Positions 8,991 to 21,405 of a stretch of 55,802 nt of DNA are shown here, piece after piece. Location: positions 1-55,802 of the forward strand of contig WTGI01000026.1 of NCBI GenBank assembly GCA_011523635.1. The letters are read 5' to 3'. The notes beneath the pieces were generated by a model that had not been told where the DNA came from, made no database searches, and was given only the letters and a program-made list of their open reading frames with translations. How positions within the stretch are numbered: the stretch's first letter is position 1; each line of letters begins with the position of its first letter. Origin of the DNA: Acidimicrobiia bacterium. GTDB lineage: Bacteria > Actinomycetota > Acidimicrobiia > Spongiisociales > Spongiisociaceae. The translations under genes and the position numbers were made by a program.

Positions 8991-10088
8991 TCAGTCCACG
9001 CCGGGGACCCTGGCCAATCCTCCCGTGCGGATGCTGTCGTAGGCGGCCGCCACCACCTCGACGGACCTGGCGCCGACCTCTCCGGGCGACCGGTTGGGCA
9101 CGTCCTTGCCCTGGGTGAGGTCGATCAGGGTGCTGGGCGGGCCGTCGCACTGGTACAGGCCGGCGTGGGGCGGTAGGTCGGGCTTGTTGTCCACACCGTC
9201 CTCGCGGAAGTGCCACAGGAAGTCCCGCTCCAGATCAACTATCAGTTGGCCTTCGGAGCCGTAGTAACGGACCTGGAGTTGGTGACGAGGCCAGGGCTCG
9301 TCGGCAATGTCGCCGATACCCGCCTGGCTGGGACAGCTGGCGCCGCTCAGGACCCCGGTGGCGCCCGACTGGTAGCGGATGCTGATGGCGTCGTGCAGGT
9401 CGACCCTGGCGCCCACGTTGTTCATCAGGGCGAACACGTCCTTGGCCCGCTCGCCGCTCAGCCAGAGAGCCAGACCCATGGCGTGGCTCAACTGAGCGGG
9501 GCCGTAGCCACCCCCGGACATAGCGGGGTCCGTCCACGTGTCCCAGTCGGGCATGAAGTCATCGGCCGAGCCCTCGTAGGCGCCGGTGGCCTTCAACAGC
9601 TCCCTGGTGCCCGAGGCCATCGCCACCAGAATGTGCTCGATGTCCCCTACCCCGCCGTCCTCGGTCATCATCCGCTTGGCCTCGATGACGGTGGGCCGGT
9701 AGTGCCAGCCGAACGAGATGACCAGATGCCGGCCCAGCGCCTTGGCTGTGGCGTCGAGATCCCAGGCGTCGGCAGGATCGATCGTGACCGGCTTCTCGCA
9801 CAGGACGTTGGCGCCGGCCTCCATGGCGGCCTTGGCGTGCTCGTGGTGGAACACCGACGGGCTGCCGACCACCACCGCGTCCAGATCGTGCTCGAGGGCC
9901 TCGCGGTAGTCCTCGGTGATGTGCTCGAACCCGAAGCGATCCTTGAGCATCTCGAGCGCATCCCAGCCCTTGCGAACGGCCACCACCAGCTCCACGTCGT
10001 CCCGCGCTTGCAGTACGGGGATGTGGTTGCTCGCCGCCCAGGAACCGGCGCCGATCACACCTACCCGCACCCGATCGTTCGCACCCAT
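8991..10088 (-). CDS. Gfo/Idh/MocA family oxidoreductase (paralogue 1)
   Basis: A 365-residue NAD(P)-dependent sugar or cyclitol dehydrogenase. The Rossmann motif is VIGAGSWA (11-18), the catalytic dyad motif is CEKP (97-100), and the alpha/beta substrate domain follows. ATG 10088 has a GGAGGGTTC ribosome-binding site. It is a close paralogue of 11816-12910, sharing for example PWPRHQLQVR, DLPPHAGLY and an EVGARSVE-like tail. The TIM-barrel isomerase follows directly. Confidence 0.9.
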   Translation of the reverse strand: MGANDRVRVGVIGAGSWAASNHIPVLQARDDVELVVAVRKGWDALEMLKDRFGFEHITEDYREALEHDLDAVVVGSPSVFHHEHAKAAMEAGANVLCEKPVTIDPADAWDLDATAKALGRHLVISFGWHYRPTVIEAKRMMTEDGGVGDIEHILVAMASGTRELLKATGAYEGSADDFMPDWDTWTDPAMSGGGYGPAQLSHAMGLALWLSGERAKDVFALMNNVGARVDLHDAISIRYQSGATGVLSGASCPSQAGIGDIADEPWPRHQLQVRYYGSEGQLIVDLERDFLWHFREDGVDNKPDLPPHAGLYQCDGPPSTLIDLTQGKDVPNRSPGEVGARSVEVVAAAYDSIRTGGLARVPGVD

Positions 10089-10198
10089 GAACCCTCCAAT
10101 CCGCTGTCGACACCGAGCCGTCAGAACAATAATCGCGGCGCCCGGCCGGTCACATTCCCGCAGCACCGGGCCAAATAGGCCCCTAGGGGATACTGCTG

Positions 10199-10362
10199 GT
10201 GGTCTGTCTGTGGAATGGCGGTGTGGTATGGCGTCGGCAGCGGTGGTCCTCGCAAGGCCCGCTGACGAAGGCGTGCCCGCAGCGGCACGTTGAGGAAGCG
10301 GAACGCAGCGAGGGGCGCCGATGACCGCCATAACACGCCTGGTCATTTCACAGACAGACCAC
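10199..10362 (+). mobile_element. 164-bp MITE-like repeat, family 1 copy 2
   Basis: The 14-bp terminal inverted repeats at 10199-10212 and 10349-10362 are identical to those of 310-474, and the body is near-identical for the first 110 bp. Copy 2 sits in the 315-bp gap between a divergent dehydrogenase and rhaM, 41 bp upstream of the rhaM start. It has the same orientation relative to the downstream gene as copy 1. No coding capacity is evident. Confidence 0.72.
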
Positions 10363-10403
10363 TAGATTCGAGCGGGCACCCAGACGGTTTGGAGGAGGCT
10401 TCC

Positions 10404-10718
10404 ATGGAACGAGCGTGCTTCACGTTCGAGATCTATCCGGACAAGGCCGACGAGTACAAGAAGCGCCACGATGAGATCTGGCCGGAGTTGGTCGAGGAGA
10501 TCCAGAAGGCCGGGCTCAAGAACTACAGCCTGTTCCGCCGCGGTACCCAGATCATCGCCTACGTGGAGGCCCACCCGGATGTGGCCACCGCCTTCGGCAA
10601 GATAGGACCCACCGAGGTGAACGCCCGCTGGTCGGAGTGGTTCGAGGATGTGATCCTCAGCCTCGTGGACGAGGACGGCAACCTCTACTGGGCCGACGAG
10701 GTCTGGCACCTCGACTGA
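10404..10718 (+). CDS. rhaM: L-rhamnose mutarotase
   Basis: A 104-residue dimeric ferredoxin-like protein, exactly the usual length of RhaM/RhaU. It matches the family in the N-terminal FEIYPDKADEYKKRHDEIWPEL region, the central NYSLFRRGTQIIAYVE strand and the C-terminal EVWHLD. It interconverts alpha and beta anomers of L-rhamnose, or a related 6-deoxy sugar, before catabolism. ATG 10404 follows GGAGGAGGCTTCC. No rhamnose isomerase or kinase accompanies it here; dehydrogenases of the oxidative route are nearby. Confidence 0.88.
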   Translation: MERACFTFEIYPDKADEYKKRHDEIWPELVEEIQKAGLKNYSLFRRGTQIIAYVEAHPDVATAFGKIGPTEVNARWSEWFEDVILSLVDEDGNLYWADEVWHLD

Positions 10719-16654: not shown

Positions 16655-17380
16655 TCAATACATGAGGGCGCCGCCGGTGACGCTGATGGCGGCGCCGCTT
16701 ATGTAGCTCGCGTGATCCGAGGCCAGAAAGACAACCACCGAAGCGACCTCGGACGGTTGGCCCAGCCGCCCCAGCGGGCAGGCGGCTACTCCGGCCGCCA
16801 CGACCTCCTCGGTGTTGTCGGTGTGCTGCATGGGGGTGTCGATCGGTCCGGGAAGGAGGGAATTGACGGTGATCCCGTGCGGCCCGTACCACCGGGCGAA
16901 GTCGCGGCTCACCGACACCACGCCGCCCTTGGCCGCGACGTAGGCATGGGCCCCCAGCCTGGTGCCCCGGATGAAGCCTGGCGACGAGAAGTTGATGATC
17001 CTCCCACCGCGGCCCCCAGCGACCAGAGCCTGCCCGAAGGCCCTGCACAGGAAGAAACCCGCCTTCAGGTCCACGTCCAGTTGCAGGTCCCACTCCTCCT
17101 CGCCCACCTCGTCCAGGGGCTGGCGCCGCAGGACAGCGGCCACATGGGCGAGGGCCCACAAGTTCCCCAGCGATTCCGACGCCTCCTCCACCAGGCCGTC
17201 GAGTCCGGCTATGTCCCGGAGGTCGTAACGCTTTGCCGTGTGACGGGAGGGCCACGCCAGCCCGGCGACCGTCCGAGCGACCTCCTCCCCCTGAATGTCG
17301 ACCGCGAACACCCGCGCCCCCGCCTCGGCGAAAGCCTCCGCGGTCGCCTTGCCGATCCCCTGGGCGGCGCCAGTGACCAT
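16655..17380 (-). CDS. SDR family oxidoreductase
   Basis: A 241-residue (from ATG 17380) short-chain dehydrogenase with TGAAQGIG, INFSS, Y-x-x-x-K (YVAAK) and a GGALMY end. The classical NNAG motif is replaced by AHVAAV. Homology to the broken SDR at 40180-40982 continues upstream of ATG 17380 through VWNVGAGLDGRGV, as far as the stop of the preceding ABC gene. That stretch has no ATG, GTG or TTG, yet an AGGAG lies there ahead of an ATC codon. Either a non-standard start is used or the protein begins at 17380. It is the last gene after the sugar importer, so it may oxidise the imported sugar. Confidence 0.82.
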   Translation of the reverse strand: MVTGAAQGIGKATAEAFAEAGARVFAVDIQGEEVARTVAGLAWPSRHTAKRYDLRDIAGLDGLVEEASESLGNLWALAHVAAVLRRQPLDEVGEEEWDLQLDVDLKAGFFLCRAFGQALVAGGRGGRIINFSSPGFIRGTRLGAHAYVAAKGGVVSVSRDFARWYGPHGITVNSLLPGPIDTPMQHTDNTEEVVAAGVAACPLGRLGQPSEVASVVVFLASDHASYISGAAISVTGGALMY

Positions 17381-17437: not shown

Positions 17438-18214
17438 TCAGGCGGTGGCGCCGGTGATGTGGGCCACCACTTCCTGGCGGGTTGTCTCCGATTTGGGCAG
17501 GTCCGCCACCAACTGCCCCTGGCGGAGTATGAGCAGGCGGGTGCAGATCGACCACACGTGCTCCATGTTGTGCGAGATGACGATCATCGCCATTTCCGTC
17601 TCGGCCGATGAAACCATCGCCCCGATCATTTCCAGCACGGCGGCCGCCTCCTTGACACCCAGAGCGGCAGTGGGTTCGTCCAGCAGCAGGAGCCGGCCAC
17701 CCCAGAACCCGGCGCGTGATATGGCCACCACCTGGCGTTGCCCACCCGACATGGTCTCGATATCTGCGTCGAGGTTCGGGAACCGAGCGGGGAGGGCTTC
17801 GACGGCGGCCCGGGCTCTCTTCCGCATCAACCTGCGGTTGAGTATCCCCAGCTTGCCGCGCCACCCGCCCCTGACCACTTCGCGGCCAAGGTAGAAGTTG
17901 GCTGGGATGTCGAAGATGTCGACCAACGCGAGCTGCTGGTAGACGGTCTCGATTCCCTCGTCGCGAGCCTCGGCGGGAGTGGAGAACACCTTGCGGTCGC
18001 CGTGCAGGTAGACCTCGCCGGCGGTCGGGATGACGGCGCCGGCCAGGCATTTGACCAGGGTCGACTTGCCCGCCCCGTTGTCGCCGAGGAGCCCCACGAT
18101 CTCGTCCCGGTCGAGGGTGAAGCTCACGTCGTCCAGGGCGCGTATGGTCCCGTAGTGCTTGGACAGACCCCTGATATCCAGCAATGGCGCACCCGGCACG
18201 GTGACGTAGCTCAT
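17438..18214 (-). CDS. Sugar ABC transporter ATP-binding protein, single-domain (FrcA-like)
   Basis: A 258-residue ABC ATPase. Walker A is GDNGAGKS (44-51), then the Q-loop YQQLALV, signature MSGGQRQ, Walker B LLLLDEPTAAL and switch His ISHNMEHV. RbsA/XylG proteins usually contain two such domains; one domain here matches the FrcA subtype. With the permease and binding protein on the same strand it powers import of a monosaccharide. The start could instead be at 18268, overlapping the permease stop, because the ribosome-binding site at 18214 is weak. Confidence 0.87.
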   Translation of the reverse strand: MSYVTVPGAPLLDIRGLSKHYGTIRALDDVSFTLDRDEIVGLLGDNGAGKSTLVKCLAGAVIPTAGEVYLHGDRKVFSTPAEARDEGIETVYQQLALVDIFDIPANFYLGREVVRGGWRGKLGILNRRLMRKRARAAVEALPARFPNLDADIETMSGGQRQVVAISRAGFWGGRLLLLDEPTAALGVKEAAAVLEMIGAMVSSAETEMAMIVISHNMEHVWSICTRLLILRQGQLVADLPKSETTRQEVVAHITGATA

Positions 18215-18260
18215 GGCACGGCTACCCGAGCGCGTCGCGGACGTACCTCTCCCCGGAACA

Positions 18261-19280
18261 TCACACATCCATCCTGACTTCCGCCTCCCGCCGTCCCAAC
18301 TGGTCGAACACCACCGCACCCAGCAGCAGGACGCCCCTGGACACCTCCTGCCAGAAAGACTGGACCTGTAGCAGGACGAGACCGTTGTCCAGCACCGCCA
18401 GGATGAGGATCGCCACCAGGGTTCCGATCACCGAGCCCCTCCCGCCGTACAGGCTGGCGCCGCCCACGATCACACCGGTCAGGGCCAGGAACTCCATCCT
18501 CTCCCCGGTCGTGGGGGACACCGCACCCACCTGGGACACGACGATCATGGCGGCCAGGGCGACGGTCGCTCCGGTGAGGACGAACGCGATACCCACCTGC
18601 CGCTCGAGCGGGATCCCCGCCAGCCTCGCCGCCTGGGGGTTGGCGCCGATGGCGTACATCTGCTGGCCGTACTTGGTGAGGCGCATGACCACGTAGAAGA
18701 TCGCCACCACCATCAGCAGCACGATCACGGCTACGGGTATCTCAATCCCCCACACCTCGAAGCGGGTACGTCCCAGGAACCTGAACCCTTCGACGCGGAC
18801 GGCCCGCCCGTCCATCACGAGCTTGGAGGCCCCGCGGAAGGCGACGAGGGTGGCGAGCGTGGTGAGGATCGAGTTGACCCGGAACTTGATGATCGCCACC
18901 GCGTTGATGCCTGCGATCGCCATGGCGGCTGCTATCGCCGCGACGACTCCCCAAGCCATGCCGTGGTCCCGGGCGAACACCGCGAAGACGGCGCCGGCGA
19001 ACCCGATGGCGGATCCCACCGACACGTCGACCTGCCGGGCCACGAGCAGCAGGGTCATGGCGCTTCCGATGATGCCGATCACCGCCCCGTTGACCAGGAC
19101 GTTCACCAGGTTGGTGGAGGTGAAGAAGAACGGGGACCGGATGGTGAAGAAGACGCACAGCAGGATCAGGACGCCGACACGCGCCTGCATGGCCGTGAAC
19201 CGCACGCGCGACGTCAGCTTCGAGATCACCCCACCGGCCGGGGTGGCGCCCCGGCCCCGGTTAGAACGTGCCTTGGCCAC
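18261..19280 (-). CDS. Sugar ABC transporter permease (RbsC/FrcC-like)
   Basis: A 339-residue inner-membrane permease with about 8-10 hydrophobic helices. It carries the family's VDVSVGSAIGFAGAVFA and YAIGANPQAARLAGIP (the coupling helix region), and GGASLYGGRGSVIGTL near the C-terminus. GTG 19280 starts the protein and no clear ribosome-binding site precedes it, perhaps because it lies just after a large stem-loop. It forms the membrane channel of the 16.7-21.4 kb importer. Confidence 0.88.
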   Translation of the reverse strand: MAKARSNRGRGATPAGGVISKLTSRVRFTAMQARVGVLILLCVFFTIRSPFFFTSTNLVNVLVNGAVIGIIGSAMTLLLVARQVDVSVGSAIGFAGAVFAVFARDHGMAWGVVAAIAAAMAIAGINAVAIIKFRVNSILTTLATLVAFRGASKLVMDGRAVRVEGFRFLGRTRFEVWGIEIPVAVIVLLMVVAIFYVVMRLTKYGQQMYAIGANPQAARLAGIPLERQVGIAFVLTGATVALAAMIVVSQVGAVSPTTGERMEFLALTGVIVGGASLYGGRGSVIGTLVAILILAVLDNGLVLLQVQSFWQEVSRGVLLLGAVVFDQLGRREAEVRMDV

Positions 19281-19284
19281 TGCT

Positions 19285-19390
19285 TAGGAGCGTGCTGAGT
19301 AATCCACCAGCGGCCTGCTGGTCGCCGGCATGCTCCCCGGTTCAGCGAGTAGCAGGCCATCAGCAATCGTCATTAGTCAGCATGCTCCTA
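19285..19390 (-). promoter_or_regulatory. Large intercistronic stem-loop between binding-protein and permease genes
   Basis: The arms 19285-19303 and 19372-19390 are inverted over 19 bp with two mismatches. Inside them GGCCTGCT (19312-19319) pairs with AGCAGGCC (19351-19358). The structure occupies nearly all of the 133-bp gap. In ABC importer operons such structures commonly protect the upstream binding-protein mRNA and reduce downstream permease expression. A short transposable remnant is the alternative. Confidence 0.6.
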
Positions 19391-19413: not shown

Positions 19414-21405
19414 TTACCCGGCTGCTTCGGGGTAGGCGTCGGTCAGGTTTGAAGCATCGAGGAACTGGTGGTCGATGAAGATCTCACGGCCCGGGTCATC
19501 ACCCTTCGCCAACGCTATAGCCGCCGGCACCGCCAGGCTCCCGTACCGATCCGGGAAATACGCCACATCACCGATCCACTGCGGATTGTTCAAAATGTCC
19601 GGCCACGCCGAAGCATCCGCCCCATGACCAACGATGAACACATGCTCACCCCGGCCCTGAGTCTCAGCCGCCGCGAACGCAGAAGCCGCATCAGGATCAC
19701 CGAAACTCGACATCACCAGAATCACCGTCGCGTCAGGCACCGTCGTCAAGATATCCGTGAACTGGCGCCGCACGTTCTCCAACGCATCCGAGCCGCCCTG
19801 ACGCTTGTCCACAACCCGGAACTTCGAATCAGGAACCGCCCCGCAGACACCCTCGAAGCCCTCACGCGAACCACCGGCCCGCTGAGCATTGATATCAGGC
19901 GACGACAGGTTCTCGATCGACACGTACAGATCGAAATCGCAACCGAACTCCGACTGAGCGAAATCACCCAACCCGGCCCCGGCCACCAAACCGGCCTCGT
20001 AACCGTTCGACCCCACAAACACCCGCTCACACGGACCCTGAGGCACATCCATCGTCACCGTCGGCAGATCACCATACGCCTCGCAAACCGCCTCAGCAGC
20101 ATCAGGGAAGAACTGCCAGTTGATCACCGCGTCCAACCCCTGAGCATCCAAAGTCCGAGCACACTGGATAGCCGTATCCGTAGAGAAATTCGCATCACAC
20201 TCGAACAACTCCACACCAGCCGCAGCAGCCGCATCACGAATACTCTCCGTCACGATGAACACGAACGGATCCGCATCACCACCCGAGATATAACCCAACT
20301 TGATCGGCTCATCGGTGGTCATCGCCATCTCATCAGCCATACCGGCTGCTTCGGGGTAGGCGTCGGTCAGGTTTGAAGCATCGAGGAACTGGTGGTCGAT
20401 GAAGATCTCACGGCCCGGGTCATCACCCTTCGCCAACGCTATAGCCGCCGGCACCGCCAGGCTCCCGTACCGATCCGGGAAATACGCCACATCACCGATC
20501 CACTGCGGATTGTTCAAAATGTCCGGCCACGCCGAAGCATCCGCCCCATGACCAACGATGAACACATGCTCACCCCGGCCCTGAGTCTCAGCCGCCGCGA
20601 ACGCAGAAGCCGCATCAGGATCACCGAAACTCGACATCACCAGAATCACCGTCGCGTCAGGCACCGTCGTCAAGATATCCGTGAACTGGCGCCGCACGTT
20701 CTCCAACGCATCCGAGCCGCCCTGACGCTTGTCCACAACCCGGAACTTCGAATCAGGAACCGCCCCGCAGACACCCTCGAAGCCCTCACGCGAACCACCG
20801 GCCCGCTGAGCATTGATATCAGGCGACGACAGGTTCTCGATCGACACGTACAGATCGAAATCGCAACCGAACTCCGACTGAGCGAAATCACCCAACCCGG
20901 CCCCGGCCACCAAACCGGCCTCGTAACCGTTCGACCCCACAAACACCCGCTCACACGGACCCTGAGGCACATCCATCGTCACCGTCGGCAGATCACCATA
21001 CGCCTCGCAAACCGCCTCAGCAGCATCAGGGAAGAACTGCCAGTTGATCACCGCGTCCAACCCCTGAGCATCCAAAGTCCGAGCACACTGGATAGCCGTA
21101 TCCGTAGAGAAATTCGCATCACACTCGAACAACTCCACACCAGCCGCAGCAGCCGCATCACGAATACTCTCCGTCACGATGAACACGAACGGATCCGCAT
21201 CACCACCCGAGATATAACCCAACTTGATCGGCTCATCCGCCATCACCGCAGTCGTCTCGGGCGCCGCCGCCTCGGTAGTGGCGGGGGCTTGGGTTGCCAC
21301 CGGTTCCGGGGTCTCCTCGTCGCCACCGCAGGCCGCGGCGAGTAGGAAGAAGACCGACACGATCACCAACCCGGGTCTGAACCGGTACCACGTCCCTCCG
21401 AGCAT
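19414..21405 (-). CDS. Sugar-binding lipoprotein with two identical tandem binding domains
   Basis: A 663-residue lipoprotein. Lipobox LLAAAC is followed by a Thr/Ala/Pro-rich linker and a periplasmic-binding-protein (Peripla_BP_4 type) domain starting DEPIKLGYISGG. After EAAG a short MADEMAMTT linker leads into the same ~300-residue domain again, identical in sequence, to the stop. Normal relatives have one domain and about 350-380 residues. ATG 21405 has a GGGAGG site. It should capture a sugar for the permease and ATPase downstream on the same strand. Base composition in the duplicated part looks less GC-rich than its neighbours by eye. The duplication may be real and recent or an assembly error. 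Confidence 0.85.
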   Translation of the reverse strand: MLGGTWYRFRPGLVIVSVFFLLAAACGGDEETPEPVATQAPATTEAAAPETTAVMADEPIKLGYISGGDADPFVFIVTESIRDAAAAAGVELFECDANFSTDTAIQCARTLDAQGLDAVINWQFFPDAAEAVCEAYGDLPTVTMDVPQGPCERVFVGSNGYEAGLVAGAGLGDFAQSEFGCDFDLYVSIENLSSPDINAQRAGGSREGFEGVCGAVPDSKFRVVDKRQGGSDALENVRRQFTDILTTVPDATVILVMSSFGDPDAASAFAAAETQGRGEHVFIVGHGADASAWPDILNNPQWIGDVAYFPDRYGSLAVPAAIALAKGDDPGREIFIDHQFLDASNLTDAYPEAAGMADEMAMTTDEPIKLGYISGGDADPFVFIVTESIRDAAAAAGVELFECDANFSTDTAIQCARTLDAQGLDAVINWQFFPDAAEAVCEAYGDLPTVTMDVPQGPCERVFVGSNGYEAGLVAGAGLGDFAQSEFGCDFDLYVSIENLSSPDINAQRAGGSREGFEGVCGAVPDSKFRVVDKRQGGSDALENVRRQFTDILTTVPDATVILVMSSFGDPDAASAFAAAETQGRGEHVFIVGHGADASAWPDILNNPQWIGDVAYFPDRYGSLAVPAAIALAKGDDPGREIFIDHQFLDASNLTDAYPEAAG
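19418..20313 (-). repeat. 896-bp direct repeat, copy encoding the C-terminal binding domain
   Basis: It appears base-for-base identical to 20342-21237, with an offset of 924 bp (308 codons). The repeat stays in frame with the other copy, separated by a 28-bp linker at 20314-20341. The two opposite-strand frames inside it also translate identically in both copies, which supports nucleotide identity. Confidence 0.9.
20342..21237 (-). repeat. 896-bp direct repeat, copy encoding the N-terminal binding domain
   Basis: Partner of 19418-20313. Identity stops on the 5' side (of the gene) where the N-terminal linker (AVMADEP) differs from the internal linker (MAMTTDEP). On the 3' side it stops at the last Gly codon, which is GGT here and GGG before the stop in the other copy. 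Confidence 0.9.

Follow-up and report, generated by a model that had tools for sequence, protein, structure and literature searches.

Two identical binding domains in one lipoprotein

We identified a gene in Acidimicrobiia that encodes the same ligand-binding domain twice in one reading frame. The product is very probably a lipid-anchored, two-headed binding protein of a CUT2-like ABC importer, with domains that undergo concerted evolution and a pair of heads that is kept by selection. The doubling is real: it is present at the same locus in several species, with copies that are identical within a genome and different between species. The window (the whole stretch of DNA analysed, 55,802 nucleotides) comes from a 3.15-Mb draft genome of 91 contigs (G000) and was compared with Acidimicrobiia MAGs, several of which we take to come from sponges. 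The locus has the following features.

16655..17380, minus strand: short-chain dehydrogenase (SDR), end gene of the row binding protein-permease-ATPase-SDR (profile match, synteny)
17438..18319, minus strand: ABC ATPase with a single ABC domain, 293 aa (profile matches)
18261..19280, minus strand: permease, BPD_transp_2 (Pfam accession PF02653; profile matches)
19283..19390, no strand: palindromic insertion of ~105 bp between the binding-protein stop codon and the permease (fold, locus comparison)
19414..21405, minus strand: 663-aa lipoprotein ORF with two identical Peripla_BP_4 domains (ORF list, translation, Pfam)
19418..20313, minus strand: repeat copy B, C-terminal domain, 896 bp exact; domain core 19429-20298
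20314..20341, minus strand: 28 bp between the copies, core of the internal linker MADEMAMTT (linker comparison)
20342..21237, minus strand: repeat copy A, N-terminal domain, 896 bp exact; domain core 20353-21222
21328..21345, minus strand: lipobox-like LLAAAC ending the signal sequence (read from the translation)

A repeat search of the window identified an 896-bp direct repeat with zero mismatches (19418-20313 and 20342-21237, offset 924). Both copies are in frame within the 663-aa ORF, and Peripla_BP_4 (Pfam accession PF13407) matches two stretches of it (128.5 bits, cut-off 35.1). Pfam detects no other domain in the ORF, and the protein is given no named NCBIfam family. These results confirm what a sequence-only reading had described: two identical blocks 924 bp apart that encode one domain twice behind a single lipobox, in a lipoprotein adjoining its permease, here the BPD_transp_2 ORF beside the doubled ORF. 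Long open frames on the plus strand lie antisense to each copy (19468-20376, 302 aa; 20392-21345, 317 aa) and probably arise as a side effect of codon bias.

No other repeat with an exact run of at least 200 bp and a spacing below 3 kb was found in 848 kb sampled from the window, stretches of its genome and stretches of one relative. Chance is thus excluded as the source of the 896-bp repeat, and the same sample rules out a genome-wide proneness to tandem repeats. The only other exact repeat of at least 30 bp in the window is a 65-bp direct pair (358-422 and 10247-10311, 9.9 kb apart), whose second copy falls in the start region of ORFs 8991-10346 and 10290-10718.

The gene order binding protein-permease-ATPase-SDR is kept in relatives. 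The permease is nearest the AraH/RbsC type, yet scores far under the equivalog cut-offs. The palindromic insertion (fold -56.1 kcal/mol, z -2.3) is single copy in its genome and was not seen at the binding protein-permease junction of the doubled relatives G014 and G011, which rules out this candidate mobile element as the agent of doubling.

Identity within genomes and divergence between species

The sequence-only reading had proposed searching relatives for double-domain homologues, and four further genomes carry one at the same operon position, with exact runs of 899 bp (G014 and G006), 903 bp (G011) and 910 bp (G001, from a different genus than the window, with the gene on a 3.0-Mb contig). 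A gene in a more distant relative (L043, ~62% identity) is also doubled; its copies share an exact run of 866 bp and differ at 2/870 positions. The congeners G009 and G010 have one domain only at this operon position.

The two copies show 0/870 differences in each of the five doubled genomes (G000, G014, G011, G006 and G001), although short-read assemblers may merge near-identical copies and could hide a few within-gene differences in some of them. Between these genomes, the domain differs at 26-128 of 870 positions, mostly silent sites for the closer pairs. G000 and G014 have the linker MADEMAMTT in common and encode identical domains that differ at 30/870 bases, and each of these 30 differences occurs in both copies. 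Zero differences within genes against 26-128 between genomes, with a common junction in G000 and G014, is the pattern of concerted evolution. Identity within the gene while species differ argues that the copies are overwritten rather than young, and that the two heads are thus old and real. Among the three origins that the sequence-only reading had offered, homogenisation by conversion is the one supported; a very recent event does not fit a junction that recurs in G014 despite the 30 differences.

Homologous exchange between the 0.9-kb repeats, by gene conversion or unequal crossing-over, would keep overwriting one copy. The two heads may in turn be kept by selection, as such exchange can also remove a head without a scar and two relatives have only one, yet the doubling persists in several species. 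The single-domain genes of G009 and G010 show that a second head can be dispensed with; the window gene may have lost a head in these two genomes or gained one separately elsewhere.

We also identified a 4.6-kb contig (G107:C168, loci L044 and L200), binned into the genome of another family, that carries half of this binding domain. Compared with the doubled copies in the genus of the window, it differs at 15-22/486 bases; it reflects either mis-binning or transfer.

The internal linker and the origin of the second head

The internal linker, read from the 28 bp between the copies and the edges common to both, is EAAGMADEMAMTTDEPIK. Its MADEMAMTT is equivalent to MADDSAMTT in the N-terminal spacer of the one-domain orthologues in G009 and G010 (MADDSAMTTDEPIK). 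This resemblance suggests that the duplicated unit is the spacer plus domain of the same gene, and the second head would have arisen by an in-frame tandem duplication of this unit inside one gene. The match to the orthologous spacer rejects a recombined paralogue, which the sequence-only reading had named as the source of the linker; that reading had also suggested looking for MADEMAMTT in relatives, and G014 has it. As a whole, the earlier reading stands in part: a two-headed lipoprotein and conversion hold, while a very recent event, an artefact and a paralogous linker do not.

The linker is 18 codons long in all five doubled genomes and starts with EA[AV]GMA[DE] in both genera. In G011, G006 and G001, part of it also matches the N-terminal spacer of the same genome, suggesting that the length of the overwritten tract varies.

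Other doubled binding proteins in the class

The class has at least four more binding proteins with the same kind of doubling (exact runs of 956-1011 bp; in another, 4/901 differences). G014, G011 and G008 have two domains in a second Peripla_BP_4 gene, with 0/870 differences within genes and 21-26 between genomes, whereas G009 has one. A gene on contig C8 of G000 is doubled with 1011 bp exact, in contrast to its relative in G011, which is single. Two doubled genes come from different families of the class: a Peripla_BP_4 gene in G041 (956 bp exact) and a gene in G138 (4/901 differences) on a 4.78-Mb single-contig genome. In the phylum sample outside the class, we detected no doubled PF13407 pair at E≤1e-40, and a literature search of open-licence papers turned up no binding protein described as exactly doubled.

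Nine genomes of family f1 (G000, G014, G010, G012, G011, G008, G001, G003 and G007) have a Bmp/PnrA-like lipoprotein in doubled form, whereas its matches in other families of the order are single, a distribution that implies an ancestral duplication. In the eight genomes for which it was measured, identity between the copies is 85-98%, with 947 bp exact in G007, and the head-specific ends of this lipoprotein are conserved across genera. The Bmp gene is thus a clear case of an ancestral duplication with copies that are patchily or partially overwritten.

Two further observations concern G001. In two adjacent Bmp-type matches (589217-591176 region; L134, 14379-14883), identical stretches recur here and there at period 1294, which again points to exchange among copies of binding proteins. 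The second observation is a 577-aa protein (L084, 10501-12234) encoded within a few kb of this genome's doubled binding-protein gene; it has four repeated domains, Cache-sensor-like by eye, with a 142-bp exact stretch at period 804.

Alternative histories

The exact copies could instead each be young and independent, the product of recurrent fresh duplication in which heads are often lost and regained with little long-term overwriting. At three loci, some orthologues have one domain and others two (the window gene, single in G009 and G010; the second Peripla_BP_4 gene, single in G009; the C8 gene, single in G011), and the exact tracts span almost the whole unit; both points favour this history. 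This history is nonetheless unlikely, since it does not account for the MADEMAMTT junction common to G000 and G014 despite 30/870 differences, the equal linker length in five genomes of two genera, the conservation of head-specific Bmp ends across genera or the confinement of Bmp doubling to family f1 in the order sample.

It is also quite improbable that the exact in-frame repeats in several Acidimicrobiia binding-protein genes form a reversible head-number switch, in which a population varies between one, two or more heads, the variation itself is selected because it tunes nutrient capture within the population, and sequence identity preserves switchability. In favour of such a switch, in-frame repeats of 0.9 kb without a mismatch are ideally suited to gaining and losing units, closely related species differ in head number at three loci (one or two at the window locus), and repeat proteins that vary in length and consist of nearly identical domains have been described (PMC8201768). 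However, we saw no gene with three or more heads.

An assembly or consensus artefact, either a single-domain gene doubled in silico or diverged copies merged, is highly improbable: exact tandem repeats longer than the reads are error-prone and the contigs of several relatives break there, but the junction is present as sequence in five separate assemblies, one of them a 3.0-Mb contig, a comparable doubling of another gene lies on the 4.78-Mb contig of G138, and Bmp copies stay different in the same assemblies. The artefact that the sequence-only reading had considered is therefore not borne out. Hidden merging of near-identical copies is less likely for G001 and G138.

The contig breaks are themselves what a true exact repeat produces. 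In G012, G013 and G003, contigs break off 52-54 bp past GATGAGCCG at the repeat entry, consistent with an assembly graph of k=55 meeting the repeat. Concerted evolution of a doubled gene would also explain a practical pitfall: short-read assemblies of such genes fragment at the repeat, and the doubled-head trait is therefore probably under-recorded.

Relation to known systems and proposed benefit

A single-domain AF2 model (pLDDT 90) has sugar-binding proteins as its best PDB matches (5hsg, TM 0.80), and from this fold the 663-aa protein may bind a sugar. A full-length AlphaFold model was too poor for use (mean pLDDT 48). The locus resembles cluster B/CUT2 sugar-binding proteins (RbsB, YtfQ, MSMEG_1712 and KPN_01730, 5hsg) in its Peripla_BP_4 domain, its type I periplasmic-binding fold and the BPD_transp_2 permease and ABC ATPase encoded alongside. 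These relatives have one domain per protein, whereas the window protein has two. CUT2 ATPases usually carry two fused ABC domains; in contrast, the 293-aa ATPase here has one ABC_tran domain and matches only the first half of ~500-aa CUT2 ATPase models.

Most descriptions of concerted evolution by gene conversion concern separate genes or short repeats. As in tandem duplicates, the two copies in one genome here resemble each other more than they resemble those of other genomes, but the units concerned are whole domains within one ORF and the pattern recurs in several binding-protein genes of one class.

Two heads on one lipid anchor, joined by an ~18-residue linker, would double the binding sites per anchor. 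With two identical sites, loaded domain may be locally more concentrated at a single permease, and one head could capture substrate while the other docks. Such a benefit is plausible given GlnPQ and OpuA of Lactococcus lactis, which also tether more than one substrate-binding domain covalently near the permease of an importer (PMC8025302, PMC11065425). The tandem domains of GlnPQ bind independently with unchanged affinity, and transport depends on linker length (PMC8025302); the two domains of OpuA act cooperatively (PMC11065425). By analogy, higher substrate capture or transport from two heads is plausible at the window locus. The architectures differ in that GlnPQ and OpuA domains are fused to the transmembrane subunit, whereas here two domains share one polypeptide that is a separate lipoprotein, with the permease in its own ORF (18261-19280). 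The two GlnPQ domains also differ in specificity, while both heads here are identical. If the preferred history is correct, a separate binding protein with two interchangeable heads, recurrent in several genes of one class and kept perfectly identical by recombination, offers a natural test case of whether doubled binding sites per anchor improve ABC import.

Periscope proteins provide a further parallel, as each of their genes encodes globular domains repeated at high identity, which are open to intragenic recombination and copy-number change (PMC8201768). The window gene likewise has long identical in-frame repeats. In periscope proteins, the function lies in a distinct distal domain and the repeats serve as its stalk, whereas the repeated domain here is the ligand-binding unit itself, in two copies. 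Head number at the window locus varies between one and two in a comparison of species rather than strains.
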